From contig NZ_DASQNA010000022.1 in assembly GCF_035645195.1 (NCBI RefSeq), positions 1 to 64,000 on the forward strand: a DNA stretch of 64,000 nucleotides, read 5' to 3'. This DNA comes from Paenibacillus sp. (GTDB lineage: Bacteria > Bacillota > Bacilli > Paenibacillales > YIM-B00363). The notes beneath the pieces were generated by a model. That model did no database searches. It saw nothing but the letters and a program-made list of their open reading frames with translations, and was not told the DNA's origin. The position numbers were made by a program, and so were the translations under genes. Positions 616-16,218 of this stretch are shown piece after piece; within the stretch, counting starts at the first letter, position 1; each line of letters opens with the position of its first letter.

Positions 616-646
616 TTGACTTAGAGTGTACTCTAAGTGTTAGTCT
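616..646 (+). promoter_or_regulatory. MerR-type operator-promoter upstream of merR-like gene
   Basis: A -35 box TTGACT (616-621) and -10 box TAGTCT (641-646) are separated by 19 bp, the long spacer typical of MerR-activated promoters. The spacer contains an inverted repeat CTTAGAGT-GT-ACTCTAAG (620-637) with perfect 8-bp arms. The same element occurs at 1102 and 10626. Confidence 0.85.
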
Positions 647-669
647 CTTTTTGTGCGACAAATTTATTA

Positions 670-1056
670 ATGGAGACGATTGCGTTGACATATTCTATTG
701 GCGAACTTTCAAAAATCGTTGGGGTAAGCGAACATACTTTGAGGTTTTATGAAAGGGAAGGCTTAATAAAAGTAAACAGAGACGATAACAATATCAGGGT
801 TTATTCGGAAGAAAATAAAACATGGGTAGAAGCTTTGCTCCACCTAAAAAAAACGGGGATGTCACTAAAAGACATGAAGCAATTTGCCATGTGGGGGCAT
901 GTGGGGAATGAAACAATGGGAGAACGATTAGATCTACTTAAAAATCATCGCAAAAAAGTAGTGGAAGAATTGAAGAAGCTTCAACAAAGTTTAGAGTTTC
1001 TGGATGATAAAATTACTTTTTATGAAAATGAATTGGGAGACTGTTTCTCTAAGTAG
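670..1056 (+). CDS. MerR-family transcriptional regulator (AdhR/NmlR-like)
   Basis: The product is a short one-component activator of the MerR family. The winged HTH begins YSIGELSKIVGVSEHTLRFYEREGLI, followed by a VEALLHLKKTGMSLKDMKQF segment and a C-terminal dimerisation helix (KNHRKKVVEELKKLQQSLEFL). I take ATG 670 as start; the frame is open from TTG 637, and TTG 685 is also possible, but 637 lies inside the operator. The gene sits on a promoter with an operator of its own type, implying autoregulation. AdhR/NmlR-type members use a cysteine near the region here reading LLHLKKTG; this protein has none there, only one Cys near its C-terminus (GDCFSK). Signal and mechanism are therefore open; probable targets are the operators at 1102 and 10626. 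Confidence 0.85.
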   Translation: METIALTYSIGELSKIVGVSEHTLRFYEREGLIKVNRDDNNIRVYSEENKTWVEALLHLKKTGMSLKDMKQFAMWGHVGNETMGERLDLLKNHRKKVVEELKKLQQSLEFLDDKITFYENELGDCFSK

Positions 1057-1101
1057 CCTGTTGCTTTTTCCAAAAGGAAAAAAATTAAAGTGAAAAACCA
1101 C

Positions 1102-1132
1102 TTGCTTTAAAGTGCACTCTAAGGAGTAACCT
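1102..1132 (+). promoter_or_regulatory. MerR-type operator-promoter upstream of SDR gene
   Basis: TTGCTT (1102-1107) and TAACCT (1127-1132) are separated by 19 bp that contain the inverted repeat CTTTAAAGT-GC-ACTCTAAG, matching the operator before the merR-like gene. The leader downstream (CCATTTAGATTCAGGAAGG) also matches that of the P460 gene at 10651-10700, so the regulated promoter and leader were duplicated as one unit. Confidence 0.8.
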
Positions 1133-1216
1133 AGTGTTGCTCCATTTAGATTCAGGAAGGAATACGCGGTGAAAAAATGGAGAAAATTAAGATTACAAAA
1201 TTAGGAGGAGTAATTT

Positions 1217-2059
1217 ATGGCCAACAATAAAGTTTGGTTTATCACTGGTGCCGGTCGCGGTATGGGGGTTGACATTGCAAAAGCTGCTCTTGCGGCTGGA
1301 CATCGTGTAGTTGCTACCGGGCGTAATACCGACAAGGTATCCAAAGTTCTGGGCGAGAACGATAACCTGCTGGTCGTAAGACTGGACATTACTAATCCTT
1401 CCGATGCAGAAGCTGCTGTCAAGGCAGCAGTTGATCGATTTGGCAGCATTGATGTGCTGGTCAACAACGCTGCCAACTTCTATGCAGGATATTTTGAGGA
1501 GCTGACTCCTGAAAATATCGAGCGTCAAATTGCTACCAACCTTATTGGCCCGATGAACGTCACCCGTGCTGTATTACCTATGATGCGTAAAAATCGTTCC
1601 GGCCACATCATTTCCATCTCATCAATCGCGGGTCTTGTTGGACAAGAATATGTTTCTGCTTATTGCGCTTCGAAGTTCGGTCTAGAGGGATGGATGGAGT
1701 CTCTGCACCATGAAGTCGCTCCGTTTGGTATAAAAACCACCATCGTTGAGCCGGGCTTCTTCCGCACCGAATTGTTGGAGCCGGAGTCGACATTCTGGCC
1801 TGAGTTGACAATCGACGATTATGCCGAGCGCTCCAATAAAAGCCGTACTATGTTTGAGTCAGTAAATGGCAGACAGCCTGGAGACCCAGCCAAACTTGCT
1901 AAGGCGCTGCTCATTATTGCAGACGAGAAGGAGCCTCCGGTACGCTGGATAGCTGGAGCTGATGCAATTGCTGGTGCTGAGCAGAAGGTAGCAGAACTCC
2001 AACAGCAGATCAATGCCTACCGTGATTTATCAACTTCACTTGCACATGAAGACGCATAA
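1217..2059 (+). CDS. Short-chain dehydrogenase/reductase (SDR)
   Basis: This 280-residue classical SDR is likely an NADP(H)-dependent cytosolic oxidoreductase. Visible motifs are the cofactor loop TGAGRGMG (about residues 10-17), the NNA motif (VNNAANF), the catalytic Ser in SISSIAG and the YCASK catalytic Tyr/Lys pair. The PGFFRTELL segment follows the active site. The long C-terminal tail (DPAKLAKALLIIADEKEPPVRW) is typical of ketoreductase-like SDRs; fragments of related tails survive at 3121 and 10519. An AGGAGG site sits 6-8 bases before ATG 1217. It is the first gene behind the second MerR operator. The substrate cannot be read from sequence. Confidence 0.9.
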   Translation: MANNKVWFITGAGRGMGVDIAKAALAAGHRVVATGRNTDKVSKVLGENDNLLVVRLDITNPSDAEAAVKAAVDRFGSIDVLVNNAANFYAGYFEELTPENIERQIATNLIGPMNVTRAVLPMMRKNRSGHIISISSIAGLVGQEYVSAYCASKFGLEGWMESLHHEVAPFGIKTTIVEPGFFRTELLEPESTFWPELTIDDYAERSNKSRTMFESVNGRQPGDPAKLAKALLIIADEKEPPVRWIAGADAIAGAEQKVAELQQQINAYRDLSTSLAHEDA

Positions 2060-2378
2060 TTACGAGTTAACGATGCTGATATTCTGAATTGCAACAGTTT
2101 GTAATAAGCTAACTGGACACGTTAATGGAATCAATAGGGAGCAGATCACCTCAGTAACTGCTCCCTGAATTGAAGTAACACATTAATTAATTAGTAAGTA
2201 ACCAGCGATCCCTTGGATTTGCGACCTTCTCCTTTATAACGGCAACGGTTGCTCGGCGTGAGACCGTTCATTTTGAGGACTGTATATGTTTGTATTATCC
2301 CTAAACTATCTTCTTCATAAGATTGCAATCTCTCACTTTAATCATACACCCAAAAAGTTATGAGAAAGGAGGATTTCA
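2060..2378. other. Intergenic stretch with one hairpin
   Basis: No gene is recognisable. An inverted repeat GGGAGCAG (2137-2144) / CTGCTCCC (2158-2165) lies about 80 bases after the SDR stop; it lacks a T-run, so it is only a weak terminator candidate. The reverse strand at about 2194-2292 has a short open stretch ending GEGRKSKGSLVTY that I do not recognise. Confidence 0.35.
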
Positions 2379-3086
2379 ATGTCCTCGGATAAACAAGTTG
2401 CACTTGTCACTGGTGGGAATCGAGGAATTGGATATGAACTGGTCAAACAATTGGCTTTGAATAGTTTTAAGGTCATTTTGACAAGTCGGGATCCTGAAAT
2501 CGGTCATGAAGCTGCGCAAAAACTTAAGGAGTCAAATCTGGACGTTTCGTTTATGGTGATGGATGTGGACGATCGACAAAGCATACGCCAAGCAGCTATT
2601 ACAGTAAATGATAGATATGGAAGATTAGACGTTTTGGTTAATAATGCTGGCGTGTATTTGGATGAGAATGAAAAGTTATTAACTATGGACCCTTCTATTC
2701 TAGACAAAACAATGGCAACTAATTTCTTCGGTGCTTACCATGTCATCCATTCCTTTATCCCACTCATGGAAAAGCAAGGCTATGGGAGAATTATTAATGT
2801 TTCTTCAGGATATGGGACAATGAGAGAAATGGCCGTTCAAGGAGTAGGCGCCTATAAGTTGTCTAAACTTTCTTTGAATGGATTGACACAATTGGTAAGT
2901 GCAGAAGTCAAAGGAGATATCAAAATTAACGCGGTCTGTCCGGGATGGGTAAGTACAGATATGGGTGGCCCATCTGCTCAAAGAACCCCAAAGCAAGCAG
3001 CTGAGTCTATCCTTTGGTTAGCGACTATTGGACCTGAGGGGCCTAATGGGGGGTTCTTTAGAGATGGAAAACGAATCGATTGGTAA
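2379..3086 (+). CDS. Short-chain dehydrogenase, carbonyl-reductase-like
   Basis: This 235-residue SDR begins VALVTGGNRGIGYELVKQLA, carries DVLVNNAGVY and an active-site segment NVSSGYG...GAYKLSK (Ser, Tyr and Lys present), then NAVCPGWVSTDMGG. The C-terminal ESILWLATIGPEGPNGGFFRDGKRIDW block is typical of plant/bacterial carbonyl-reductase-like SDRs acting on aldehydes or ketones with NADPH. GAAAGGAGG precedes ATG 2379. A damaged second copy lies at 4771-5004, so the family has expanded locally. Confidence 0.88.
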   Translation: MSSDKQVALVTGGNRGIGYELVKQLALNSFKVILTSRDPEIGHEAAQKLKESNLDVSFMVMDVDDRQSIRQAAITVNDRYGRLDVLVNNAGVYLDENEKLLTMDPSILDKTMATNFFGAYHVIHSFIPLMEKQGYGRIINVSSGYGTMREMAVQGVGAYKLSKLSLNGLTQLVSAEVKGDIKINAVCPGWVSTDMGGPSAQRTPKQAAESILWLATIGPEGPNGGFFRDGKRIDW

Positions 3087-3120
3087 CATTATAGTATAGA
3101 AGAATAAATCTTATGTATAA

Positions 3121-3293
3121 GGTGGAGAGGTCCGGCTAGCTAAGGCGTTGATTACGATCGCGAGCCAGGTGGAGCCACCGGTACGCCGGGCACTTCTTTG
3201 CAGTGATAAGGCTACTGGTCAGATGATCGGCATAACAGGAAACCTTGTGAATAAGTGGCAACAATTTACCAAAACACAGCAAGCTTACTCTTG
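3121..3293 (+). pseudogene. SDR C-terminal remnant
   Basis: The frame reads RLAKALITIASQVEPPVRRALLCSDKATG... and ends with QQAYS and a stop at 3291-3293. It is the tail of an SDR like the product at 1217 (AKLAKALLIIADEKEPPVRW). The catalytic parts are gone and there is no start codon or ribosome site, so this is debris of a deleted gene. Confidence 0.7.
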
Positions 3294-3392
3294 AAAAGAT
3301 GGTTACGTGGGTAAGTGTTCTCCCCCTTTCACCTTAGAAAGATGGAAGTGTTTACTATTACCAAGTTTTTAATAAGAAAGGATGTCATTTAA

Positions 3393-4136
3393 ATGTCAAA
3401 TATCCAAGATAAGGTTGTCATTATTACGGGCGCCTCTAGTGGAATTGGTGCAGCTACTGCAAAAGAACTTGCATCTAAAGGTGCGAAGTTGGTACTGGCA
3501 GCTCGTCGCGAAGATCGATTAAGAAAATTACAAGAAGAGATCCAAAATAAAGGTGGGCAAGTCATTTACAAAGTGACCGATGTTGCCTCACAAGAACAAG
3601 TGGAAGAGCTTGCTAAATATACTCTTAAAGAATATGGGAAAGTAGATGTAATGGTTAATAATGCAGGTGTAATGCCACTATCACCTATTTCTCAGCTGAA
3701 AGTTAAGGAATGGGATACAATGATTGATGTTAACATCAAGGGTGTATTATATGGTATTGCTGCTGTTCTTCCGTCCATGAGAGAAAGAAAAGAAGGGCAT
3801 ATCATTAACGTTTCCTCAATAGCTGGTCACTTAGTATTCCCTACTAGTTCAGTATATAGTGGTACAAAGTTTGCTGTACGAGCCATTACAGAAGGTCTTC
3901 GTAGGGAAGAGTATAGCAACAATATTCGTACAACCATTATCTCGCCAGGGACTATTGATACAGAATTACTAGATGCCATTTCAGATTTAGAATTAAAATC
4001 TACATTCGTTGAAGCTAATAAAAAAGTTCAAATCGAGCCTGCTAGCATTGCTCGTGCCATTGCATTTGCCATTGAACAACCATCAGATGTAGCGGTAAAT
4101 GAGATGATTATTCGTCCAACCATCCAAGAACTGTAA
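3393..4136 (+). CDS. Short-chain dehydrogenase (YdfG-like SDR)
   Basis: This 247-residue classical SDR has the cofactor loop TGASSGIG, an NADP-favouring AARREDRL segment, VNNAGVMPLSP, and the active-site Ser (NVSSIAG) and YSGTKFA Tyr/Lys pair. PGTIDTELL and the tail AIAFAIEQPSDVAVNEMIIRPT match the large group of broad-range NADP-dependent alcohol/aldehyde SDRs. AAGAAAGGATG precedes ATG 3393. A broken relative of its C-terminus lies at 4450-4632. It probably acts in the cytosol on small carbonyls; the substrate is not evident. Confidence 0.88.
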   Translation: MSNIQDKVVIITGASSGIGAATAKELASKGAKLVLAARREDRLRKLQEEIQNKGGQVIYKVTDVASQEQVEELAKYTLKEYGKVDVMVNNAGVMPLSPISQLKVKEWDTMIDVNIKGVLYGIAAVLPSMRERKEGHIINVSSIAGHLVFPTSSVYSGTKFAVRAITEGLRREEYSNNIRTTIISPGTIDTELLDAISDLELKSTFVEANKKVQIEPASIARAIAFAIEQPSDVAVNEMIIRPTIQEL

Positions 4137-4449
4137 AATCAACATATTTGTAATGAGGAGTCCCACTTTTTGGGGGCTCCTTGTGCTTATGGATAAAACC
4201 GTTTATGACCTTGGGGAAGCTGTTCTTATTTATAGCATGCTATATGTTGTAACAAAATAGAACCTTCCAACTAATGTGAAATTTTCTCCTGGTTTATTCC
4301 GCATATATGGGTTTTGGACCAAGCGCCATGTTGCAGCATTGGGCTCTGTTCAATGATTACAAAATTGGGACTTAATCATCAATGAAAGTTTTTTTGTTCT
4401 CAAATACTCTTCGACTGCTGACTCTACGATACCTCGTGGACGGAAACGA
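4137..4449. other. Intergenic stretch without recognisable gene
   Basis: An imperfect hairpin (AGGAGTCCC...GGGGGCTCCT, about 4155-4181) follows the SDR stop and may end transcription, though no T-run follows. Nothing else is recognisable up to the SDR remnant. Confidence 0.35.
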
Positions 4450-4632
4450 TTGTGCTATTTGTATGCCGTTGGACACGATATTACCGACGAAGTCAGCGCT
4501 GCTGTCTTAAAGGAATATCGTAAAACAGTTCTTCCTCCGGAAGTCATTGCTAATGCCATGGCGTATGCGATTGAGCAACCGGATTATGTGGATGTAAGTG
4601 AAGTTATTGTGCGTGAAAAGAGCAGAATGTAA
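4450..4632 (+). pseudogene. SDR C-terminal remnant (YdfG-like)
   Basis: The frame contains DITDEVSAAVLKEYRKTV followed by VIANAMAYAIEQPDYVDV and SEVIVRE, matching the tail of the intact SDR at 3393 (ARAIAFAIEQPSDVAVNEMIIR). Cofactor and catalytic regions are missing and no ribosome site is visible. It is the last quarter of a deleted paralogue. Confidence 0.7.
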
Positions 4633-4770
4633 AAAGCATCAAATAAACAGTGGATGTTGTCTCGTCTTTTGAAGCAATTGATGGATTGCGGTCTGCGTGA
4701 ATCGTGAAATAGCGCAAAAGTACGCACCTTATTTGCTGGAATTATAAGGAGTAGGAGGATCATCCCATAC

Positions 4771-5004
4771 CTTTGGGAAACTTCTTCGGCGCTTACCACG
4801 CTCATGGAAAAGCATAGATATGGGAGAATTATCAATGTTTCATCAGATACGGATATGGGTGGTGCGTTTGCTACACGAACTCCGCAACAAGCAGCAGAGT
4901 CAATCCTTTGGTTGGCGACGATTGGACCTGATGGACCCAATGGTATGTATTTTAGAGATGGTAAAAAACCGAATGATAACTGTGCCCGGAAAGTCCGAGC
5001 ATGA
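4771..5004 (+). pseudogene. Carbonyl-reductase-like SDR with internal deletion
   Basis: Pieces match the intact SDR at 2379: NFFGAYHA, then (frame changed) LMEKHRYGRIINVSS, then directly TDMGGAFATRTPQQAAESIL and ATIGPDGPNGMYFRDGKK. About 50 residues including the catalytic YxxxK are deleted between VSS and TDMGG. The 5' half is also absent. The tail runs into sequence belonging to a binding-protein remnant. Confidence 0.75.
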
Positions 5005-5364
5005 TAATCCTGCCACTTCAGGGAACGAGCCCGTCAAACTTAAAATGGTGCATTGGATCGAAACCAAGTCGGGAACCGTGGTGTCGGAGATCAACGAAAG
5101 GTTCCAAAAGGAATATCCCAATATTGAGGTTCTAGTCGAATATGCTCCGGTGGATCACTACCAAAGCATCATTCGCAGCCGGTTTCACCCGCATTCAAGA
5201 CGGGGACCTACTATTTTCTTAACCAAAACTGGCCGCCAGGCGCCCAGGGTAAGTTGTTCCAGGTGATTCAAGAGTTGATGGCCGGCGCGAAGACTAATTC
5301 GGTCGATCAATTGCTCAGAGAATTGGACCGATTCGAAAGTGAGGGAATGAAATGGAATATGTAA
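4997..5364 (+). pseudogene. ABC sugar-binding protein, N- and C-terminal pieces joined
   Basis: About 5020-5186 encodes KLKMVHWIETKSGTVVSEIN followed by ERFQKEYPNIEVLVEYAPVD, the mature N-terminus of a family-1 solute-binding protein, without signal peptide. From 5200, in another frame, comes TGTYYFLNQNWPPGAQGKLF and a tail ending SEGMKWNM with stop at 5362-5364, a typical C-terminus of the same family. The roughly 300 central residues are missing. This is a deletion relic. Confidence 0.65.
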
Positions 5365-5400
5365 AGCATGTATCGCTGCGGGACCGAGCGGAGAGATTGT

Positions 5401-6651
5401 ATGACGAAGGAGACTCTGAAAATGGATCATAAGGCCAATAACCATCCACTCAGGTTAGCTCTGCTGTTAGCAGTTTTTTCTGCGCTCGGGCCATTTACAG
5501 TCGACATGTATCTCGCATCATTTCCGCAGATGATGACTTTTTTTGATACAACCGCATCGATGATCCAGGCAAGTTTAATGGCCTGCTTGCTGGGATTGGG
5601 TTTGGGGCAGCTTGTATTTGGTCCTTTAAGCGATATACATGGCAGACGCAAACCACTGTTGTTCTCCATGATGTTGTATCTCCTTTCTTCTCTCTGCTGC
5701 ACTGTTGCGCCTAATATTGAAATCTTCATTGCTTTGCGAATTGTACAAGGATTTGCCGCCTCTGCTGGGCTTGTTATTTCTCGAGCAATTGTTCGCGATA
5801 TGTATAACGGAGTAGAGTTGACTAAATTCTTTGCGCTTCTTACGATGATTAGCAGCGCCGCTCCCTTGCTTTCACCACTTGCCGGGAGCACCGTCATTAC
5901 TTTTACCTCATGGGAGGGTGTATTTATCTTCTTAGGGCTGCTGGGAATCTGTTTAACCGCCATAACAACATGGGGATTAAAGGAAAGTTTGCCTGTAGAG
6001 CAGCGTGTTCCGAATAACTTCATGGAGCTATTGGGAAACTATAAAACCTTGATCCGAAATCGGATATTTATGGGTTATGCTCTTGTAAAAGGATTTTTAT
6101 TCGCAGGCGTGTTTGCCTATGTATCAGGAACGCCATTTATTTATCAAAACATTTACGGTGTGTCGCCTCAAGTATTCTCGATGCTGTTTGCCATGAATGG
6201 AATCAGTATTATGATAGGATCTCAGCTAGTCAAACAATTGGCAGGACGAATATCCGAACGCCACATTCTTCTGATCGGATTGGTATTAGCCTTTATTACC
6301 AGCGTTTCGGTTCTTTGCGTAGTCTTATATCAGGGTCCATTCTTTGCACTGATTATTCCACTCTTCTTTTTTACTACATCGATTGGAATCGTTGGACCGG
6401 TTGCGTTTACATTAGGAATGGAATTGCAAGGGCATATTGCCGGCGGCGCTTCCGCCATTCTAGGCATCCTTCCGTTTTTATTAGGTGCTATTGCTTCCCC
6501 GCTTGTGGGGCTTGCGGGTGAATACTCCGCAGTACCGCTCGGTGTCATTCTTATTACGACCAGCTTGTTGTCTATTATTATTTATGTAACCATGACTAAG
6601 AAAGTCAAATCAGAACCCGCTGCACAATTTCGCGATGTGCGAAGTACTTGA
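5401..6651 (+). CDS. MFS exporter, Bcr/CflA family
   Basis: This is a proton-driven drug/metabolite exporter of the major facilitator superfamily with about 12 membrane segments. The start region LLLAVFSALGPFTVDMYLASFP and the GPLSDIHGRRKP loop (motif A) after helix 2 identify the Bcr/CflA (DHA1) group. The ORF extends upstream to 5368, but ATG 5401 has GGAGAG in front and fits the family's N-terminus. A close paralogue is at 16247; both share FRxVQGFAASAG and SGTPFIYQNIYG. The substrate is unknown. Confidence 0.88.
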   Translation: MTKETLKMDHKANNHPLRLALLLAVFSALGPFTVDMYLASFPQMMTFFDTTASMIQASLMACLLGLGLGQLVFGPLSDIHGRRKPLLFSMMLYLLSSLCCTVAPNIEIFIALRIVQGFAASAGLVISRAIVRDMYNGVELTKFFALLTMISSAAPLLSPLAGSTVITFTSWEGVFIFLGLLGICLTAITTWGLKESLPVEQRVPNNFMELLGNYKTLIRNRIFMGYALVKGFLFAGVFAYVSGTPFIYQNIYGVSPQVFSMLFAMNGISIMIGSQLVKQLAGRISERHILLIGLVLAFITSVSVLCVVLYQGPFFALIIPLFFFTTSIGIVGPVAFTLGMELQGHIAGGASAILGILPFLLGAIASPLVGLAGEYSAVPLGVILITTSLLSIIIYVTMTKKVKSEPAAQFRDVRST

Positions 6652-6743
6652 TTTTTTCAACATCATTTCTTGATTTTTCGGGTAATCTGTCTTCCGATTT
6701 GCTTGTACAATAAGAGCACAGAAATACAGGTTTTTCAGATGAT

Positions 6744-6766
6744 GGCCGGGGAGTTCCTCTCCGGCC
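6744..6766 (+). terminator. GC-rich hairpin downstream of MFS gene
   Basis: GGCCGGGGAG-TTC-CTCTCCGGCC forms a 10-bp stem with one mismatch; only a weak TTT follows. It lies about 90 bases after the exporter stop and may terminate it. Confidence 0.45.
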
Positions 6767-6906
6767 CGGTTTGATAAATGGGAAGGAATACAACTTGGAA
6801 CGCCTATGGAGAAAAGTGTTTATTCTAACCTGATTTATATTTTCGGGGATTCCTGTAGAAATTCAGTTAAATCTAAGGATTTTAAAAATGAAAGGAGGAT
6901 TATTAA

Positions 6907-7650
6907 ATGTCAAATTCAAAGGGACTTACTGCTACACAGAAAATAATAGGAGATTTTGATCCAATCATCAAAAAAGTTTTAATCATTGAAGATGAAATAA
7001 ACATTGCGAGAATCATTAAATTAGAGCTTGAACATGAAGGATACAAGGTAGAAACAGCAGAAAACGGCATAATAGGGCTTGAAAAATTTAGCAACGGACA
7101 ATGGAACCTTGTGTTACTCGATATTATGCTTTCAAAGTTAAACGGGATGGAAGTCCTTCGAAGAATTCGGACTTCAGGGGACATGACACCTATTATCTTA
7201 TTGACAGCAAGGGATTCAATTCCTGATAAAGTGAGCGGGCTTGATCATGGAGCGAACGATTACATTACTAAGCCATTTCAAATTGAGGAATTGTTGGCAA
7301 GAATTCGTGCGTGTTTACGAATAAACCAAATGATGGAGGAAAAAGTAGACGAACAAATATTAACTGTTGCAAATTTAAAAGTTGATAAAAAAACACGAAT
7401 AGTAACACGTGATTCCACAAATATTGAATTGACTCCTCGAGAATTCAATTTGCTTGTTTATCTGATACGGCATAAAAACCAAGTTCTAAACCGAGAGCAA
7501 ATTTTAACGCATGTATGGGGCTTTGATTATTACGGAGATACAAACGTTGTAGATGTATATATTAGGTATTTGCGTAAAAAAATAGAGGATTCCTTTCATT
7601 TTCCGCTTATCCATACAGTGCGTGGAGTTGGATATGTCATAAAGGAGTAA
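6907..7650 (+). CDS. OmpR-family response regulator
   Basis: The receiver domain has the acidic pocket (IIEDE, residues 26-30), the phosphorylated Asp at about residue 72 (LLDIML), Thr100 (LLTARD) and Lys122 (TKPF). A winged-helix DNA-binding domain follows (LTPREFNLLVYL...VDVYIRYLRKKIE...VRGVGYVI). About 20 residues precede the receiver, slightly longer than usual; AAAGGAGG before ATG 6907 supports that start. Its stop overlaps the kinase start (TAATG), so the two are co-translated. A phased repeat block at 9167-9214 is a candidate target. Confidence 0.93.
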   Translation: MSNSKGLTATQKIIGDFDPIIKKVLIIEDEINIARIIKLELEHEGYKVETAENGIIGLEKFSNGQWNLVLLDIMLSKLNGMEVLRRIRTSGDMTPIILLTARDSIPDKVSGLDHGANDYITKPFQIEELLARIRACLRINQMMEEKVDEQILTVANLKVDKKTRIVTRDSTNIELTPREFNLLVYLIRHKNQVLNREQILTHVWGFDYYGDTNVVDVYIRYLRKKIEDSFHFPLIHTVRGVGYVIKE

Positions 7651-9122
7651 TGTTTGTGAATATCCGAAATAAAATCATTTTGTTGTTAACTGTTTCAGTG
7701 CTATTGATCAGCATTACGATTAATACATCCATTTATTTTTTCTTCTATACCATTACAACCAACGATAAATTAAATTACGTTCGTTTACAGGCTGAAAATA
7801 TTGTTGGTCAATTGAAAGCTGTTACTAATGATGCGAAAATATTTTATATTTTAAATTCGCAATTACCGTTGAATGGAATGATTCGTGTTGTGAATGATGA
7901 TTCACATCCCGTTATGACCATTACAAAAGAAACGGAATTTACAGAGTTTAAACCAATATTTAAACACTCGCAAACAGTTGAATTAATATCAGTGAACAAA
8001 GTTAAGTATGCCGTTGCGAGTTTTCCAATCATATGGCACGACGGAAATATTATGATGTTAGAAGTTACAGCAAGTTTAGCATCATCATACGATAGTTTAA
8101 AAATTTTGAAGCTTGTGTTAATTGCCGCTTCACTTATTGTTCTGATTCCTTCATTTTTAGCCGGAAGAATGATAAGCAATATCATTTTAAAACCAATTAA
8201 ATCAATGATTGAAACGATGGAGGAAATTCAGCGAAAGAGCATATTTAAAAAGCTTGAGTTAAAAACACAATCAAAAGATGAATTATACAAATTGGGAAGT
8301 ACGTTTAATAAGATGATGGATATCTTAGCAAAAAACTTTGAAAAACAACAGCAATTCGTGTCTGATGCTTCTCATGAATTAAAAACACCGTTAACTGTTA
8401 TTGAAAGCAACGCAAGCATGCTGAAACGATGGGGGATGAAAGATCAGGCTCTATTGGAGGAATCTATAGATGCAATCTATTCAGAAGCCGTCAGAATGCA
8501 AGAAATGACAAAGCAAATGCTTATGCTTGCAAATCATGATGCAGAATGGAATTTAGATATAAAAAAGGTGGACTTTATTTCGCTCAGTAAAGAGACAAGT
8601 AAACTGATTAAAAATGCTTATGGCCAAGAGATTTCTGTAAACACTATACATGACAAAGTTATCGCAAGTGCAGATAAGCAAAAAATGAAGCAACTATTGT
8701 TTATCTTGCTTGATAATGCAATAAAATACAGCACATCACCTATTGAGCTAAATGTTGGATATGAGAAAGGGAACGTTTTTTTCACTGTTAAGGATTATGG
8801 GATTGGCATACCGCAAGAAGATATCGCACATATTTTTGATCGCTTTTATCGGGTCGATAAAGCGAGAAATCGGGAAACTGGGGGAACTGGACTTGGTTTA
8901 TCCATTGCAAAACAGATTGTGGATTCTCATGGAGGAAACATAAATGTCGTTAGTAAAGAGGGAGAAGGAACAAGTTTTACTGTAACTTTAAAAATAGATG
9001 CTTTTTCGGGGGAGAATTTACATGTAACACAATTGAAAGAATATTTGACTGAAAATTCAGAAAAAATTTCAGGTGAAAAGATTGTCTCTTTATCAAATAT
9101 TCGAGCAGGATCTAAATTGTGA
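7650..9122 (+). CDS. Membrane sensor histidine kinase
   Basis: The 490-residue kinase has an N-terminal membrane segment (about 10-32), an extracytoplasmic sensor of about 120 residues, a second membrane segment (LKILKLVLIAASLIVLIPSF), a HAMP linker, and the H-box SDASHELKTPLT with His242 as likely phosphorylation site. The ATPase domain has an N-box (LLDNAIKYS) and G-boxes (DYGIGIP, GGTGLGL). A tail of about 45 residues after the ATPase domain is unassigned. It partners the overlapping OmpR-type regulator; its signal is unknown. Confidence 0.92.
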   Translation: MFVNIRNKIILLLTVSVLLISITINTSIYFFFYTITTNDKLNYVRLQAENIVGQLKAVTNDAKIFYILNSQLPLNGMIRVVNDDSHPVMTITKETEFTEFKPIFKHSQTVELISVNKVKYAVASFPIIWHDGNIMMLEVTASLASSYDSLKILKLVLIAASLIVLIPSFLAGRMISNIILKPIKSMIETMEEIQRKSIFKKLELKTQSKDELYKLGSTFNKMMDILAKNFEKQQQFVSDASHELKTPLTVIESNASMLKRWGMKDQALLEESIDAIYSEAVRMQEMTKQMLMLANHDAEWNLDIKKVDFISLSKETSKLIKNAYGQEISVNTIHDKVIASADKQKMKQLLFILLDNAIKYSTSPIELNVGYEKGNVFFTVKDYGIGIPQEDIAHIFDRFYRVDKARNRETGGTGLGLSIAKQIVDSHGGNINVVSKEGEGTSFTVTLKIDAFSGENLHVTQLKEYLTENSEKISGEKIVSLSNIRAGSKL

Positions 9123-9161
9123 GAAGAGCCCCAGAAGTCATAGGGCTCTTCTTTTTTTTTT
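9123..9161 (+). terminator. Rho-independent terminator after the two-component operon
   Basis: A perfect 9-bp stem GAAGAGCCC / GGGCTCTTC (9123-9131 and 9143-9151) is followed by ten T residues, directly after the kinase stop. Confidence 0.9.
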
Positions 9162-9166
9162 GATTT

Positions 9167-9214
9167 CTAACAAAACTCTAATCAATTTCTAATCATTCTA
9201 TAAGTTCCTTCTAA
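9167..9214 (+). promoter_or_regulatory. Phased direct repeats, candidate OmpR-type regulator site
   Basis: CTAA occurs at 9167, 9178, 9189 and 9211, mostly within TTTCTAAT or ACTCTAAT, i.e. spaced by 11 or 22 bp. Direct repeats about one helical turn apart are how OmpR/PhoB regulators bind. The block lies between the two-component genes and the hydrolase gene, so it may link them. Confidence 0.5.
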
Positions 9215-9259
9215 TTTTAAAAACTTAAAATGAGATTAAGGTTATAAAAAGGAGGGGAA

Positions 9260-9277
9260 ATGAACAATTTCATATAA
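9260..9277 (+). other. Five-codon open frame with strong ribosome site
   Basis: AAAAAGGAGGGGAA precedes ATG 9260, which opens MNNFI followed by TAA. It may be a leader peptide of the hydrolase gene or the leftover start of a lost gene. No attenuator hairpin is obvious around it. Confidence 0.3.
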
Positions 9278-9363
9278 CCATTGGACAAGGGGTAGCGAAT
9301 ATGGCTATAACACTTTTTCTGACCCGACTATTAAAATGCATTTGAAAAAAAGGAGGATTTAAT

Positions 9364-10422
9364 ATGAGAAAAATTAAGGCTTTTGCGATTGTTTCCATGT
9401 TGTTTGCATTTTTACTAGCTGGCTTTAATGCGGGACTGACTGGTGGAAGTGCAGAGGCTTCAGGTAAAAAAGCAGGTAAAAAAGAAAATGATAAAGTTAC
9501 TATGGAAACCATTACGTTTAAAAATGGTGTATGGGATATGGCGGGGAATGTGTTTTATCCAGAAAATTTTGATAAAAAACAAAAGTACCCAGCAATCGTG
9601 TTCACGCACCCGGCTGGTGGAGTTAAGGAGCAAACAGCAGGACTTTACGCACAACGTATGGCGGAAAAAGGCTTCGTTACTTTAGCTTTTGATGCGAGTC
9701 ACCAAGGTGCAAGCGAAGGCGAGCCGCGTTTTTTGGAAAACCCAACAGAACGTGTGGGCGATATTTTTGCGGCAGTTGATTATTTAACGACACTACCATA
9801 TGTGGATCAGGAGAGAATTGGCGCAGTTGGAATTTGTGCCGGTGGAGGATACACAATTGCCGCAAGTGCACTTGACCACCGAATTAAAGCGGTCGCTGGG
9901 GTAAGTACTTACGATTATGGAGCAGCTTTTCGGGATGGTTTTCCGAATGAGGGATCCGGAAATCCGGAAGACCAACTTGCTGCTTTGAAATCTGCAAGTG
10001 ATGCTCGTACAACAATTGCGAACGGCGGTGAACCAGAATATCTTCCTTATGTGCCAAATTCTGAAGATGAACTTACGGAAGATTCGCCAACAACTGCAAT
10101 AGAGGCGTATGAATACTACCGTACAGACCGCGGTTCCCACCCAAATTCACAGAATAAAATGTTGGCAACAAGTACTTTATATATGATGAACTTTGATCCG
10201 TTCGCAAATATAGATAAATGGCTGACACAACCGTTAATGCTGATTTCTGGCGATATTTCGGAATCACGTTATTATTCGGAACGTGCGTATGAAAAAGCAG
10301 TTACGAGTGATAAAGAATTGGTGCTTGTTGAGGGAGCAACTCATGTAGACATGTATGATGTGCCTCAATATGTAAACCAAGCTGTTACTAAGTTGACGAC
10401 TTTCTTTAGTGAAAAAATGTAA
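9364..10422 (+). CDS. Secreted alpha/beta hydrolase, dienelactone-hydrolase-like
   Basis: A signal peptide (MRKIKAFAIVSMLFAFLLAG, likely cut after the SAEA region) precedes an alpha/beta-hydrolase fold. HPAGGVKEQ forms the oxyanion region and the elbow is GICAGGGYT, with Cys in the nucleophile position as in dienelactone hydrolases. The acid is probably in LISGDISESRYY and the His in EGATHVDMYD. AAAGGAGG precedes ATG 9364. It follows the two-component genes and a block of phased repeats, so it may be their target. Close relatives are annotated only as hydrolases or peptidase-like; the substrate is not evident. Confidence 0.8.
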   Translation: MRKIKAFAIVSMLFAFLLAGFNAGLTGGSAEASGKKAGKKENDKVTMETITFKNGVWDMAGNVFYPENFDKKQKYPAIVFTHPAGGVKEQTAGLYAQRMAEKGFVTLAFDASHQGASEGEPRFLENPTERVGDIFAAVDYLTTLPYVDQERIGAVGICAGGGYTIAASALDHRIKAVAGVSTYDYGAAFRDGFPNEGSGNPEDQLAALKSASDARTTIANGGEPEYLPYVPNSEDELTEDSPTTAIEAYEYYRTDRGSHPNSQNKMLATSTLYMMNFDPFANIDKWLTQPLMLISGDISESRYYSERAYEKAVTSDKELVLVEGATHVDMYDVPQYVNQAVTKLTTFFSEKM

Positions 10423-10428
10423 ATGAAA

Positions 10429-10454
10429 AAAGAAGTCGTCGCACCGACTTCTTT
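10429..10454 (+). terminator. Hairpin terminator after hydrolase gene
   Basis: AAAGAAGTCG (10429-10438) pairs with CGACTTCTTT (10445-10454) across a 6-base loop, a few bases after the stop. Confidence 0.7.
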
Positions 10455-10466
10455 CAGACGGTAGAC

Positions 10467-10509
10467 AAAAAGGTATTCAATTCATTGATTTTGAATTGAA
10501 TACCTTTTT
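10467..10509. terminator. Second, bidirectional terminator hairpin
   Basis: A perfect 18-bp inverted repeat (10467-10484 with 10492-10509; arms begin AAAAAGGTATTC) has a 7-base loop and A/T-run ends on both sides, so it could stop transcription from either direction. Confidence 0.75.
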
Positions 10510-10518
10510 CGCAAGCAG

Positions 10519-10568
10519 GGTGGAGTCCCGGCGAAACTATCTAAGGCGCTGGCGCTGATTAAAATTTA
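10519..10568 (+). pseudogene. Tiny SDR C-terminal remnant
   Basis: GGVPAKLSKALALIKI plus stop matches the DPAKLAKALLII segment of the SDR at 1217. It is only 16 codons, but its place directly before a copy of the SDR's MerR-operated promoter shows that this stretch was copied from, or split off, an SDR locus. Confidence 0.5.
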
Positions 10569-10625
10569 AATATCAACGGAAAGACTTGCCGAGGCAACTT
10601 GGTATTCAAAAAATAAAAAAAACAC

Positions 10626-10656
10626 TTGATATAGAGTGAACTCTAAGGATTAATCT
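10626..10656 (+). promoter_or_regulatory. MerR-type operator-promoter upstream of P460 gene
   Basis: TTGATA (10626-10631) and TAATCT (10651-10656) flank a 19-bp spacer containing TAGAGT-GA-ACTCTAAGG. This is the third copy of the operator seen at 616 and 1102. The leader CACCATTTAAATACATGAAG matches that of the SDR gene at the same distance. Confidence 0.85.
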
Positions 10657-10741
10657 ATTCCTGCACCATTTAAATACATGAAGGGAATAACCATTACAAA
10701 TTCCTAACAACTATTATCTTAACTTGGGGAAAGGAAATAAT

Positions 10742-11521
10742 ATGAAAAAACAAATAATTTCGGCACTCCTATTGCTGCTATCCCTCACGCTTGCCGCTTG
10801 CAACAGCAACTATGACACAAATGACATGTCCCAACAGGAGCCATCTGGTAACACTCCCCAACAGGATGCGTCTGCTGACACTTCCCAACAGGATGCATCT
10901 GGTGACACTTCCCAACAAGAGCCATCGGAGCCATCTGGGTATGACCGCGAACTTGTCAAATTCCCTGAGAACTACGATAAGGGCGTGAACTACGCGACTG
11001 TGACTCGAGGAAATATCAGGGAGGAGGCTTACACGAGCCGGGAAGCGATCGAAGCGGTGCAGAACGGCCAGCCGATCCCGAGCGGTACCGTAATTGTTCT
11101 TGAGATTTATGAGGATGAAGAACTTTTTGACATCTTCGTGATGGAAAAGCGCACTGGCTGGGGCGACCAGAAACCCCCCGAGGACCCGCGTAACGGGGAT
11201 TGGCTATTCCAGGAATTCAATGCTGACAAGTCGTTGGGATACGACGTCATCGGTCGCTGCTTTTCCTGCCACGCGAATCAGGAACGGGATGACCACGTGT
11301 ACACGTTAGATGAGATGAAGAGTTATGAACTTGAGGATGTTACAGGATCGAAGGACAGTAGTACAGAATCTAGGTTCGCAGGTATCCCTACGGAGGACTG
11401 GGAGGTAAACGTGATATCTCCTCATAATGAAAAAAGTAGATTAATAGGCAATGAGGGTAAAGCAGGAATAATCGCGAACGTTCTTTTGACGATGTATTTA
11501 CAACAAAATATAAACCAATAG
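10742..11521 (+). CDS. Cytochrome P460-family lipoprotein
   Basis: The protein has a lipoprotein signal (MKKQIISALLLLLSLTLAAC, lipobox LAAC), then a tether with repeated TSQQDASGD/SQQEPS units, then a P460-like domain: FPENYDKGVNYATVTRG, TSREAIEAVQNGQPIPSGTV, GWGDQKPP, NGDWLFQEFNAD and the haem c motif CFSCH (Cys173, Cys176, His177). P460 proteins bind a c-type haem and, in known members, oxidise hydroxylamine or bind NO. The last 60 or so residues are not P460-like. ATG 10742 is chosen over 10724 because the signal peptide begins there. The following DUF4405 and ResB/CcsA/ResA genes would supply haem attachment. A frameshifted paralogue lies at 32707. Confidence 0.85.
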   Translation: MKKQIISALLLLLSLTLAACNSNYDTNDMSQQEPSGNTPQQDASADTSQQDASGDTSQQEPSEPSGYDRELVKFPENYDKGVNYATVTRGNIREEAYTSREAIEAVQNGQPIPSGTVIVLEIYEDEELFDIFVMEKRTGWGDQKPPEDPRNGDWLFQEFNADKSLGYDVIGRCFSCHANQERDDHVYTLDEMKSYELEDVTGSKDSSTESRFAGIPTEDWEVNVISPHNEKSRLIGNEGKAGIIANVLLTMYLQQNINQ

Positions 11522-11574
11522 ATGTGTTGCCATGTAAGGATATTTTGCATTCCGAACAGAAAGAGGACTATGCT

Positions 11575-12261
11575 TTGAATCGAAAGATGTTATTCAAGCT
11601 GGTAATAGACGTTGTGATGACTGTTCTTATGTTAATCGCAATGGCTTACCAAATTACGGAGAATAGAATCCATGAATTCGTCGGTGTTTCGGTCTTTGTA
11701 TTATTTATCGCCCATAATTTTCTAAATCGATACTGGTATCGTGCGATACTAAAGGGAAAGCTCAATCCAAGGCGTATTCTGCAAATCGGACTCAATTTGC
11801 TTTTTCTGCTGGCAATGGCTGTGATGATCATATGTGGAATACTCATATCCAGCGATGTATTTCCCTTTCTTGCGGTAGATAATGACATGATTTTCAGGCA
11901 AATCCATGTTCAGACTGCCTATTGGGGGTTTATCATCATGGCGATACACATCGGCTTTTCTTGGGGAATCATTATCCATTCAATAAGAAGGATGACGGGA
12001 ATCACAGGCACTAACCGTTTTCGCACCATTGCGTTGCGTATTTTGTCGGTGTTCATTGTGATCTATGGGGTACGCTCTTCCATCGAGAGAGAGATGGGGG
12101 CCAAGCTGATGGTTTATGACCCATTTTATTGGTTCGATGATGATACCATGATCCGCTTTTTAATTGACCACTTATCGATCATGGGCATCTATATTTGCGG
12201 GACACATTATGCTTTGAAATTTTTTCAGAAGCAGGAACAAAGAGCAGTTCAACTAAATTGA
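11575..12261 (+). CDS. DUF4405 cytochrome-b-like membrane protein
   Basis: This protein has about six membrane helices with histidines in pairs typical of DUF4405/cytochrome b561-like subunits: HEFVG, AHNFLNRYWY, RQIHVQTAYWG, MAIHIGFSWG, plus DHLSIMG and CGTHYALKFF. It probably carries b haem and passes electrons between the quinone pool and an external c-type protein such as the P460 lipoprotein. The frame is open from GTG 11524, but TTG 11575 has AAAGAGGA 9 bases upstream and starts close to the first helix. It follows the P460 gene with no terminator between, so one operon is likely. Confidence 0.75.
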   Translation: MNRKMLFKLVIDVVMTVLMLIAMAYQITENRIHEFVGVSVFVLFIAHNFLNRYWYRAILKGKLNPRRILQIGLNLLFLLAMAVMIICGILISSDVFPFLAVDNDMIFRQIHVQTAYWGFIIMAIHIGFSWGIIIHSIRRMTGITGTNRFRTIALRILSVFIVIYGVRSSIEREMGAKLMVYDPFYWFDDDTMIRFLIDHLSIMGIYICGTHYALKFFQKQEQRAVQLN

Positions 12262-12436: not shown

Positions 12437-14065
12437 ATGGAACATGTAAATGAACGTGTAATTTGCGAATGCGGACATGCGAACCCGCACGGAACCATTC
12501 TTTGCGGATCATGCGGGAAACAAGTCGGTGAAGCACTTCCGGAAAGATCATTCGATATGCGTTATGAAGGAAGTGCAAGACGTTCACAAACGTATAAAAA
12601 AACGCCTCCGGATATGATTTGGAATTTTTTCTCGTCCGTAAAAGTGGGGATCTGGATTATTGCTCTTATTGTAATCGCGTCTGCGATGGGAACCATTTTT
12701 CCTCAGCAGATGTATATTCCCCAAAATGTTGCGCCGGAAGATTTTTATCAAGATCAATACGGCTTTCTGGGCCAAATATACTATCAATTGGGTTTTAACA
12801 ATCTATATGGTTCATGGTGGTATTTCCTGCTGTTGGCCGCTCTGGGAATATCGCTTGTGATCGCAAGTTTGGATCGAGTGGTTCCTCTATATCGCGCTTT
12901 GAAAAATCAAGGCGTTACGCGGCATGAAAGCTTCATGCGAAGACAACGTCTTTTCAGTGAAACAAGAGTGAAAGAAAATACAGATGAACAGCTGGATGTT
13001 CTCATAACCAAATTAAAGAATAAACGATATCGTATTCTGGAAGAAAACGGAAATTATTTGGCCGAGAAAAATCGATTTTCAAGATGGGGACCGTATGTAA
13101 ATCATACGGGCCTTATTATCTTCCTTATCGGAGGAATGCTCCGATTTATACCGGGGATGTATGTAGACGAAATGCTTTGGATTCGTGACGGTGAAACAAG
13201 CGTTATTCCGGGAACGAATGGAAAGTATTATTTAAGCAGCGACAAGTTTATTTTGGAAACTTATCAAATCGAGCAAGAGGATGAAGTATTTGCGAATGCC
13301 CTGTCACGAGTTGGAGACGGAAATATCGTTAAAAATTTTCAAACGAATGTAACCTTGTATGAACGTAACGGCGAGATCCTACCTGGAATCACACCCGAGC
13401 TCGTAAAGGTAAAGGATTACCAAATCAAAGTGAATCAACCTTTGAAACATAATTCGTTTGCTCTTTACCAAACTTCCTATAGATTAAATGAACTCAATAA
13501 GATGACCTTTCGTCTAGAGGATAAAGAGACGGAAACAAGCTTTGGCCAGATTACGATCGATTTATTAAATCCGGAAAAAAATTATGATCTGGGCAATGAA
13601 TATAAAGTTGAGATTTTAGAATATTACCCCGACTTTTATTTTGATCGTGCAGGCCGGCCTGCAACAAGGTCACAGGTTCCCGACAATCCGGCATTTTTCT
13701 TTAACATGATCTCTCCAGAAAACCCGGATGGCGAAACAAGCTTTGTTGCCATACGAAATACATTTGAACCAAACGGAGATAATCAATTCCAAATGAAATT
13801 TGAAAATGTTGAAACGAAAAATGTATCGGCCCTTACCGTTCGTAAGGACAATACGTTATGGTTTCTTGGGTTGGGAGGAGCTATTTTCATGATTGGAGTT
13901 ATACAAGGGATGTACTGGAACCATAGGAGAATATGGATTAGGAGAAGCGGCGACGCAATCTTAATTGCAGGGCATACAAATAAAAATTGGTATGGGATCG
14001 GAAATGAAATAAACCATATTTTAAAAGAAACCGGCTTTCAAGAATTAACTGATCAAACAGGATAA
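12437..14065 (+). CDS. resB: ResB-like cytochrome c biogenesis protein with zinc ribbon
   Basis: The product resembles ResB/Ccs1, which with ResC/CcsA moves haem across the membrane and joins it to CXXCH proteins. An N-terminal zinc-ribbon (CECGHANPHG...CGSCG, residues 10-26) is followed by the family start FFSSVKVGIWIIALIVIAS, a second helix (YFLLLAALGISLVIASLDRV), a third (GPYVNHTGLIIFLIGGMLRF), a large external domain and a last helix (LWFLGLGGAIFMIGVIQG). 542 residues is normal for the family. The zinc ribbon is an addition seen in some Firmicute members. It is the first gene of a resB-ccsA-resA set behind a P460 gene, suggesting service to that cytochrome. Confidence 0.85.
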   Translation: MEHVNERVICECGHANPHGTILCGSCGKQVGEALPERSFDMRYEGSARRSQTYKKTPPDMIWNFFSSVKVGIWIIALIVIASAMGTIFPQQMYIPQNVAPEDFYQDQYGFLGQIYYQLGFNNLYGSWWYFLLLAALGISLVIASLDRVVPLYRALKNQGVTRHESFMRRQRLFSETRVKENTDEQLDVLITKLKNKRYRILEENGNYLAEKNRFSRWGPYVNHTGLIIFLIGGMLRFIPGMYVDEMLWIRDGETSVIPGTNGKYYLSSDKFILETYQIEQEDEVFANALSRVGDGNIVKNFQTNVTLYERNGEILPGITPELVKVKDYQIKVNQPLKHNSFALYQTSYRLNELNKMTFRLEDKETETSFGQITIDLLNPEKNYDLGNEYKVEILEYYPDFYFDRAGRPATRSQVPDNPAFFFNMISPENPDGETSFVAIRNTFEPNGDNQFQMKFENVETKNVSALTVRKDNTLWFLGLGGAIFMIGVIQGMYWNHRRIWIRRSGDAILIAGHTNKNWYGIGNEINHILKETGFQELTDQTG

Positions 14066-14093: not shown

Positions 14094-15269
14094 ATGATCG
14101 CTATTAGCAGTAACCTGCTTTATGCAGCATTCTTGTTATATTTACTTTCCACCTTTCTGTTTGGTGGAGCGATTCGCGATCGGAGAAAACAATACGATAA
14201 ACCAAGTAAATGGGCTGCAGCCGCAATAAGTGTGACCATTCTAGGCTTTATTGCCCATATGGGATATTTTGTAACAAGATGGATGGCTGCCGGACACGCG
14301 CCGGTGAGCAATATGTTCGAGTTTGTAACCGCATTTTCGATGATGTTCGTGTTGGCATTCATCATCCTTTATTTTTTGTATAAAGTGTCAATCTTGGGTT
14401 CATTCACCTTGCCGATTACGTTATTAATGATTGCCTATGGAAGCTTGTTCCCGACAGATGTTTCTCCATTAATACCGGCACTGCAATCGGATTGGCTTGC
14501 GATCCATGTAACGACAACGGCACTAGGTTCAGCAGTATTAGCCAGCAGCTGTATTGCAGGTATCATTTATTTACTTCGTTCTGTCGACCAGACGAAACCG
14601 TCCATGAAAACCTTCTGGCTTGAAGTAATCATGTATTCCATCGTGGCAACACTTGCTTTTATTATCATTACATTGGTTTTTAGAGGATTGCAATATGAAG
14701 CTGTTTATCAAGGGTTCGATCAAAATGGCCGGGAGACGGAGATCACTTACAACCTTCCTTCACTTATAGGGCCTAATCAAGGCGAGTTGCTTACAGAAGG
14801 TAAAATGGAAGCTTTCGTCGAGGTACCGGCTGTTATCGACGCAGGAAAATTAAATACAGTCATTTGGTCTGTTATCTCGGGTTTTCTTTTATACCTATTC
14901 CTTAGGCTGATTTTAAGGAAAAGAATTTCTGCAGCTCTTCAGCCCTTAACAAAGAATATTAAGCTTGATTTGGTTGATGAAATTGGATATCGATCGGTTG
15001 CGATCGGATTTCCGATATTTACTTTGGGCGCACTCGTTTTTGCGATGATATGGGCTCAAATTGCTTGGACACGTTATTGGGGATGGGACCCTAAGGAAGT
15101 ATGGGCACTAATTACATGGTTATTCTATGCAGCATATTTACATTTACGGCTGGCTAAAGGTTGGCATGGAGAAAGATCGGCATGGCTTGGAGTCATTGGT
15201 TTTGGAATCATTATGTTCAACCTGGTTTTTGTAAACCTGATTATCGCGGGATTACATTCTTACGCCTGA
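14094..15269 (+). CDS. ccsA: CcsA/ResC-like haem lyase subunit
   Basis: This polytopic membrane protein has the tryptophan-rich haem-handling motif of the CcsA/CcmC/CcmF superfamily, [18 protein letters not shown], near the C-terminus, and conserved histidines ([28 protein letters not shown]). With ResB it forms the system II cytochrome c synthase that attaches haem on the outer face. AAAGAGG precedes ATG 14094, 28 bases after the ResB stop. Length (391) and motifs are normal. Confidence 0.9.
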
Positions 15270-15286
15270 TAAGTAAGGAGGTTCAG

Positions 15287-15814
15287 ATGGGGAACAAAAA
15301 GACCAGATTTCTTTTTCGCTTGGGTCTGCTGCTTATTATGATTTCGGCCATAACTTACGCGTTTTATCAGCAATTCTTTACTGAAAAAGATCGGGTTCAG
15401 GCTGGAGATCAAGCACCTGATTTTGTACTTGAAGATCTGGAAGGAAATCAAGTTCAGCTATCAGACTTAAAGGGAAGAGGAGTTTTTTTGAATTTCTGGG
15501 GGACATGGTGCAAACCATGTGAGCAGGAAATGCCTTATATGGAGAGTCAGTATCATCGCTATAAAAACCTGGGTGTAGAAATATTAGCTGTTAATATTGC
15601 GGAAAGCGACATTGCCATTGAATCTTTCGTTGAAAGACATGGACTTACCTTTCCCGTTCTGAAAGATAAAGACCAGGCAGTGACTGAAGCTTATGATATT
15701 ATCCCAATTCCGACATCATTCTTAATCGATAAGAATGGAAAAGTTCTAAAGGTGATAACCGGCGCTATGACTGAGAAGGATATAGCAAATTACATGGAAT
15801 TAATAAAATCATGA
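15287..15814 (+). CDS. resA: ResA-like thiol-disulfide oxidoreductase
   Basis: A single N-terminal anchor (FLFRLGLLLIMISAITYAFY) is followed by a thioredoxin-fold domain with active site WCKPC (Cys75/Cys78) and the cis-Pro loop IPIPTSFLID. ResA reduces the CXXCH cysteines of apocytochrome c outside the cell before haem attachment. B. subtilis ResA has CEPC; here it is CKPC. TAAGGAGG precedes ATG 15287; an upstream in-frame extension to 15161 overlaps ccsA and is rejected. Confidence 0.9.
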   Translation: MGNKKTRFLFRLGLLLIMISAITYAFYQQFFTEKDRVQAGDQAPDFVLEDLEGNQVQLSDLKGRGVFLNFWGTWCKPCEQEMPYMESQYHRYKNLGVEILAVNIAESDIAIESFVERHGLTFPVLKDKDQAVTEAYDIIPIPTSFLIDKNGKVLKVITGAMTEKDIANYMELIKS

Positions 15815-15982: not shown

Positions 15983-16218
15983 TTTGGCGGACGGGTTCAA
16001 CGTTGGGGAGGTCCGATGGAGGAGATTCGTCCCGGCGACGTGATCTGTTCCCGCCAGGCGAGAAACACTGGCATGGTGCTTCTCCAACCACAGCGATGAC
16101 TCACATTGCCATTCAAGAACGTCTGGACGGCAAGGCGGTCGATTGGATGGAGAAAGTCAGCGACGACGATCAATACCACGCCCAATCGGACTTAATTCTT
16201 TTTAAAGTTTTACCATAG
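15983..16218 (+). pseudogene. Cupin-domain protein, 5'-truncated and frameshifted
   Basis: One frame gives [19 protein letters not shown]; the next gives [20 protein letters not shown] then [20 protein letters not shown]. Inserting one G in the TGATCTGTTC stretch (16041-16050) would restore [14 protein letters not shown], a usual cupin metal-binding core. The N-terminal half is missing. Similar cupins sit beside carboxymuconolactone decarboxylases; a broken one of these lies at 28572 and an intact cupin at 30225. Confidence 0.75.

Follow-up and report, generated by a model that had tools for sequence, protein, structure and literature searches.

How do a short-chain dehydrogenase (SDR) gene and a cytochrome gene cluster come to carry the same kind of MerR-type promoter as the gene of the regulator itself? 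The question is raised by a 64,000-nucleotide stretch of Paenibacillus sp. DNA (assembly GCF_035645195.1, contig NZ_DASQNA010000022.1, positions 1 to 64,000 of the forward strand; hereafter the window), which forms the beginning of a 239,102-base contig and has three such promoters, sites A, B and C, in front of merR, the SDR gene SDR1 and a P460-DUF4405-ResB-CcsA-ResA cluster, respectively (Table 1). We consider it likely, reading from sequence, that merR encodes a mobile NmlR-like regulator, that copies of the old yellow enzyme (OYE) promoter which it serves elsewhere now stand before SDR1 and the cytochrome cluster, and that one inducer would act on both.

A first-pass annotation of the window, made from its letters, had described the three elements as TTGxxx/TAxxCT promoters with 19-bp spacers, and all three are found exactly where and as it placed them, on the plus strand, with domain matches that agree on the identity of the genes behind them. 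In each site a 19-bp spacer separates TTGNNN from TANNCT and contains a palindrome that ends in ACTCTAAG. The inverted repeat said to be common to all three holds in part: the right arm is whole in every site, whereas the palindrome CTTAGAGT-NN-ACTCTAAG is perfect in site A only (16/16 arm positions), the left arm of B and C matching at 6 of 8 positions (14/16 in total). A 31-mer pattern derived from the sites themselves has three matches in the window and none in each of 100 shuffles, and when it is allowed up to three mismatches in the whole genome (5,950,630 bases in 55 contigs) it finds exactly sites A, B and C, while a reversed control pattern finds nothing there at the same tolerance. 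With a weight matrix trained on 16 sites from eight relatives, the window sites being held out, C scores 43.3, B 40.0 and A 39.1, against 6.8 for the runner-up in the window and 9.2 for the top position of the reversed window. Shuffles, genome scan and held-out matrix reject a chance origin of the three matching sites, and the palindrome scan of the whole genome that had been suggested as a check rules out that such sites are scattered through it. The local regulon is real and well defined. All three sites fall inside 10.1 kb and there is no fourth genomic match to the 31-mer, so that the regulon, as judged by its operator, is confined to about 10 kb. The bare octamer ACTCTAAG occurs five times in the window against one expected, four times within sites A–C and once elsewhere, and it is in the whole 31-mer that specificity resides. 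No fourth, weak site was seen in the window by matrix or inspection ahead of the MFS gene at 16247; homologues of this gene (75%) in four other genomes do carry such a site.

Where does this regulator come from? Vertical descent within its own order (Paenibacillales) does not seem to account for it, to judge from its sequence relatives: 141 of the 392 genomes of the order (own included) match it at E 1e-20 or better, and among the matches listed the best, apart from its own copy, is 50% identical, the best in its own family (eight genomes) being 40% identical. The genome-contig scan gave 15 relatives, eight of them 79–83% identical (Neobacillus, Niallia, Bacillus, Peribacillus and Ectobacillus) and the next 43%, and 45 plasmid records also matched, six at 78–80% (Priestia and Peribacillus). 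The eight chromosomal and six plasmid loci make up the 14 loci that we compared, with regulators 78–84% identical to that of the window and two sites placed alike. All of them have one site before merR and a second 73–115 nt after it, and in 14/14 the gene after this second site is an OYE gene (frame-broken in L071 and L169) instead of SDR1; a third site before a P460 gene, as in the window, is absent from them. An SDR or aldo/keto reductase (AKR) gene lies next to OYE downstream in at least 8 of the 14. When the eight genomes were searched whole, 16 of 18 site matches belonged to merR-OYE pairs and the remaining two adjoined alcohol dehydrogenase and other MerR genes. Among the matches listed in a literature search for MerR, OYE, Bacillus and quinone, none was recognised as describing this pairing. 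In other genomes of the order, 22/392 carry exactly one exact site each, followed by an SDR-like gene in 11 cases, an MFS gene in four, an AKR gene in two, a carboxymuconolactone-decarboxylase-like (CMD) gene with divergent merR in two, merR in two and an epimerase-like gene in one. Because SDR-like genes stand behind such sites elsewhere in the order, SDR control at site B would be ordinary; it is site C that calls for an explanation.

The comparison with the 14 loci suggests one. The best match of site A is to a first site (28/31), and those of B and C are to second sites, that is, to OYE promoters (30/31 in L072 and 29/31 in L068, respectively). The likeness of C extends into the 29 bases that follow it, of which 27 are those of the OYE leader of L072, a score that none of 2000 shuffles matched. 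The other seven chromosomal OYE leaders share 15–25 of the 29 bases with it (p 0 to 0.0095 over all eight, by shuffling), five of the six plasmid OYE leaders share 26 and the sixth (L169) 16, while each of the six plasmid merR leaders shares 10. The leader of B is more diverged, with 12–21/29 against the chromosomal OYE leaders. B and C can themselves be aligned for some 85 bp, and none of 2000 shuffles scored as high as their downstream flanks do. Both sites thus look derived from the OYE promoter. The window yielded no OYE gene (no match better than E 0.35), and the nearest OYE in the same genome, at C25, is 50% identical and has no operator site. Since OYE follows the second site in 14/14 loci and the operator is missing directly upstream of all 17 other P460 genes compared, the link to the cytochromes looks like promoter capture and not like an old property of the regulator. 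The tie to a haem-protein assembly module that had been proposed for this locus accordingly survives as far as the position of site C before the cluster is concerned, and is changed in its meaning, as C looks captured. A route can be conceived: merR, OYE, SDR3, P460 and DUF4405 are contiguous in L071, and a deletion in an L071-like ancestor could have joined the promoter to P460.

What has been captured by the promoter, or has captured it? The first protein of the cluster has a P460 domain (PF16694, 49.2 bits against a cut-off of 27) with a CxxCH haem attachment motif, and its best matches in the PDB are chains of 7S5O (NeCP-beta) and 6HIH (McCP-beta), both tabulated as cytochromes c'-beta in PMC11928373. 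Cytochromes P460, according to the same source, have their cross-linking lysine at the position of McCP-beta Phe61 and NeCP-beta Met79; with the numbering of the paper carried over to the chains by inference, the aligned residue is leucine in 18/18 aligned proteins. The window protein thus resembles cytochrome c'-beta, likewise having no lysine at the presumed cross-link position; unlike these references, it is an apparent lipoprotein clustered with DUF4405 and ResB/CcsA/ResA. This likeness together with the leucine makes hydroxylamine chemistry unlikely; a role as hydroxylamine oxidase is disfavoured, and the first-pass suggestion of hydroxylamine as a compound to try is weakened. A DUF4405 protein has been shown to bind haem b (PMC11334425), and among the matches listed in our search for literature on cytochrome P460 or DUF4405 none held both terms. 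A second ResB/CcsA pair is found in the same genome at C18, and as it is diverged (40 and 48% identical), the copy in the window looks dedicated to its cluster.

P460 matches at E 0.001 or better are found in 24 of the 392 genomes of the order (own included). We compared 16 P460 stretches, 11 from ten other genomes of the order (E <1e-30) and five from merR-OYE carriers; 13 order genomes with weaker matches lie outside this comparison. Five stretches (L138, L139, L141, L142 and L144) have the whole P460-DUF4405-ResB-CcsA-ResA set, with ResB 80–83% and CcsA 85–89% identical, and L142 and L144 have RR-HK-DLH in common on the same side. In these 16 stretches and L071, this type of operator (up to four mismatches) stands directly upstream of P460 at 0 of the 17 genes; the sites of L150 are found downstream of P460, close to an alcohol dehydrogenase gene. 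Homologues of the TetR gene of the window occur beside or near P460 in 6/16 stretches and a LysR gene in 3/16. The TetR-P460 intergenic regions of L138, L139, L141 and L153 have a palindrome in common, GATTTGTTGAGTAATCAACAAATC in L138 with small variants in the others, which is possibly the TetR operator for P460 in these relatives. Such control has not been kept in the window, where the palindrome is not found near P460 or tetR; its five matches there (up to three mismatches) lie at three places, all elsewhere. A second, broken P460 gene lies at 32632–33305, its fragments, 58 and 61% identical to the intact copy, lying in different frames with one internal stop. Of 12 plasmid matches listed, five (H19–H22 and H24; Sinorhizobium, Rhizobium and Pseudosulfitobacter) have P460 and DUF4405 annotated together under the match, so the pair extends beyond Gram-positives.

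The mechanism that we propose would work as follows. A mobile NmlR-like MerR regulator would bind CTTAGAGT-NN-ACTCTAAG palindromes in 19-bp spacers and act on two promoters, its own and one for detoxification, the latter driving OYE in other carriers. In this lineage the locus would have lost OYE, and OYE promoter copies would have come to stand before a different SDR gene (site B) and before the genes of the P460-domain protein, DUF4405, ResB, CcsA and ResA (site C). The merR product would occupy all three promoters and, on the signal, untwist the 19-bp spacers so that RNA polymerase can start, a mode of binding and activation that we infer for the three sites alike. A single inducer would in this way turn on both carbonyl reduction and the production of an extracytoplasmic c-type cytochrome, with its haem-b membrane partner and the haem-attachment machinery. 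Operons with such sites make OYE, SDR, AKR and CMD enzymes, and a reactive carbonyl or quinone is therefore the probable signal.

Several observations weigh against this scheme. Averaged over the 14 loci, site C is equally distant from site 1 and site 2 (25.4 matches to each), so that assigning it to the OYE promoter depends on the best match and the leader. The leader of B is not above shuffles for two of the eight chromosomal OYE leaders (L067, p 0.69; L068, p 0.12), and upstream of B and C the flanks show no significant likeness (p 0.09). In L146, a 19-bp MerR-type promoter with CTTGGAGT arms (8060–8090, three mismatches) stands before an AKR gene that is followed by P460 on the same strand, and MerR-type read-through control of P460 may thus exist elsewhere. 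The class of signal is judged solely from the neighbouring enzymes, and the genome encodes eight MerR_1 proteins besides that of the window. Finally, C and its leader are at best about equally preserved (29/31 and 27/29), which gives no sign of selection on C; as it is no better kept than the leader, recent arrival alone could explain its survival, and its preservation fits use as well as recent arrival.

This last point lends some weight to the view that site C is a passenger, a fragment of an OYE promoter left by recent recombination and without regulatory role, the cluster being expressed from elsewhere. The decayed SDR fragment just upstream of C and other broken genes in the window, such as the second P460, are what one would expect of such a history. 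However, C retains its hexamers, the 19-bp spacing and the conserved core, has the top matrix score of the three sites and lies on the correct strand with its end 85 bases ahead of the P460 start codon, and a scan of 10300–10760 for sigma-70-like promoters with 16–18-nt spacers found none. We therefore regard a passenger as unlikely, though it is an explanation to be taken seriously, and prefer a promoter in use.

Which MerR protein would use it? That the three sites serve another MerR of the genome, or are shared by several, appears quite improbable to us, even if nine MerR_1 matches (that of the window included) are available, related MerR genes elsewhere stand at near-identical operators, and seven of the paralogues, for which the scan gave no clear 19-bp operator, remain candidates. 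The eighth, L011 (G000:C10), has a perfect 19-bp-spaced palindrome of different sequence, CTTCAAGT-CG-ACTTGAAG, and it is merR that sits between A and B and that is found together with two sites in 14/14 other loci, six plasmids among them.

The merR product belongs to the MerR family (PF13411, 64.7 bits against a cut-off of 21.6) and has the small two-part build expected of it, with an N-terminal winged helix-turn-helix and a C-terminal dimerisation helix, in the monomer model, which predicts a helix-turn-helix, helices 42–56 and 61–68 and a long helix 78–121 (mean pLDDT 83.7). MerR operators lie in promoter spacers of 19 or 20 bp, and the three 19-bp spacers agree with this. Its three best solved relatives match over residues 1–115 (E 6e-27 to 8e-27), and one of them is named HI_0186, which we take to be NmlR of H. 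influenzae. NmlR (PDB 5E01, 5D8C and 5D90) is likewise a small MerR protein with CTTAGAGT/ACTCTAAG operator arms; its target in H. influenzae is adhC-estD, whereas the targets of window-type regulators appear to be OYE and, here, SDR1 and the cytochrome cluster. The DNA bound in 5D8C is given as cttagagttcactctaag in a table of PMC6480146, and the arms of site A agree with this 18-mer at 16/16 positions and those of B and C at 14/16, so the operator is the already known NmlR-type operator. The AdhR/NmlR type assigned in the first-pass annotation is borne out by these relatives and operator arms, but not by the NCBIfam NmlR model (NF041849), for which the regulator scores 69.4 bits against a cut-off of 175. 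According to PMC4776306, the sensor cysteine is absolutely conserved in the NmlR clade and important (Cys54 in NmlR, Cys52 in AdhR). Here it is replaced by His53, which aligns with Cys54 and is histidine in 9/9 aligned orthologues; the missing cysteine had thus been correctly noticed, but the single conserved Cys120, located where the long C-terminal helix ends and sole cysteine in 9/9, had been overlooked. Both residues are retained in 5/5 unbroken plasmid copies. In AdhR (YraB) the Gram-positive Bacillus subtilis likewise has a MerR protein that controls carbonyl-stress genes; it relies on Cys52 (PMC4776306), for which the window regulator has no equivalent. On sequence grounds the regulator is NmlR-like yet outside NmlR proper, and in view of the histidine, Cys120 or a non-thiol site is probably where the signal acts. 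That it is instead an ordinary NmlR/AdhR orthologue which senses formaldehyde or methylglyoxal through a conserved cysteine, as HI_0186 and two like chains among the solved relatives and the identical operator arms might suggest, is very unlikely given His53 in all nine orthologues and the low NmlR score. Convergence of site C from a weak promoter hardly deserves credit: MerR sites are short, but the likeness runs past the operator into the leader.

The operator and the type of regulator are known, then, and what is new is the apparently captured cytochrome promoter and the His-for-Cys branch. Tentatively, one may go further and imagine a separate, plasmid-spread NmlR-like branch with His for Cys54, sensing through Cys120 or a non-thiol ligand (quinone or metal), whose promoter was taken over in this lineage by a membrane cytochrome module, and the sensing of electrophiles would then directly control an extracytoplasmic c'-beta/haem-b route for electrons that brings its own machinery for haem attachment; we see this as a possibility rather than an expectation. 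The next group of regulators in the order (45–50% identical, seven fetched loci, L155–L161) is mixed: of the six regulators read (all but L158), five have the histidine of the LLHLK motif and L161 has arginine. TTAAAGT-type sites are found within the fetched stretch in six of the seven (all but L161), lying in L155–L160 near CMD, SDR3-like, AKR or cupin-like genes. Regulators of this identity with operators of this type suggest that operator and regulator changed together in the L155–L160 group. The locus offers a readable case of bacterial regulon rewiring, in which the donor promoter, its captured copy, the missing original target and uncaptured relatives are all visible. It also exposes an NmlR-like branch in which the cysteine thought necessary for sensing is an invariant histidine, opening the sensing mechanism to direct test, and it gives a cytochrome cluster that is whole at five other loci of the taxonomic order a candidate regulator and a class of inducer.

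Table 1. Features of the window discussed in the text (positions count from its first base).
Feature	Position	Strand	Description
Site A	616-646	+	TTGACT-19-TAGTCT; NmlR-type operator in the 19-bp-spacer promoter of merR (putative autoregulation); counterpart in 14/14 orthologous loci
merR	685-1056	+	NmlR-like MerR regulator, 123 aa, probable TTG start
Site B	1102-1132	+	TTGCTT-19-TAACCT; operator/promoter ahead of SDR1
SDR1	1217-2059	+	Short-chain dehydrogenase; first gene behind site B
SDR2	2379-3086	+	Homologues (78-84%) near P460 genes in L138, L139, L141, L150, L151
SDR3	3393-4136	+	85-86% identical to the SDR after OYE in L066, L069, L070, L071
SDR1-like remnant	10511-10560	+	Resembles 3' part of SDR1, 10/16 residues (match at 10513-10560), E 0.003
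Site C	10626-10656	+	TTGATA-19-TAATCT; operator/promoter ahead of cytochrome cluster
Leader after site C	10657-10685	+	Like the OYE leader of L072; evidence for promoter capture
P460-domain cytochrome	10742-11521	+	Apparent lipobox, CFSCH haem motif; c'-beta-like
DUF4405 membrane protein	11524-12261	+	Domain match
ResB	12437-14065	+	One of two in the genome
CcsA/CcsB-type cytochrome c biogenesis protein	14094-15269	+	Domain match
ResA thiol-disulfide oxidoreductase	15281-15814	+	Domain match

Further along the window, at 24537–30635, a TetR gene precedes genes for an aldo/keto reductase, an alcohol dehydrogenase, and carboxymuconolactone-decarboxylase-like and cupin-like proteins (named by homology or reading), and in relatives several genes of this region have homologues that adjoin P460 genes or NmlR-type sites. 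What looks like a vestige of a cupin-like gene (15990–16215) lies between ResA and the MFS gene, and close to the contig start (180–330) there seems to be what is left of a helix-turn-helix gene, interrupted by an in-frame stop.

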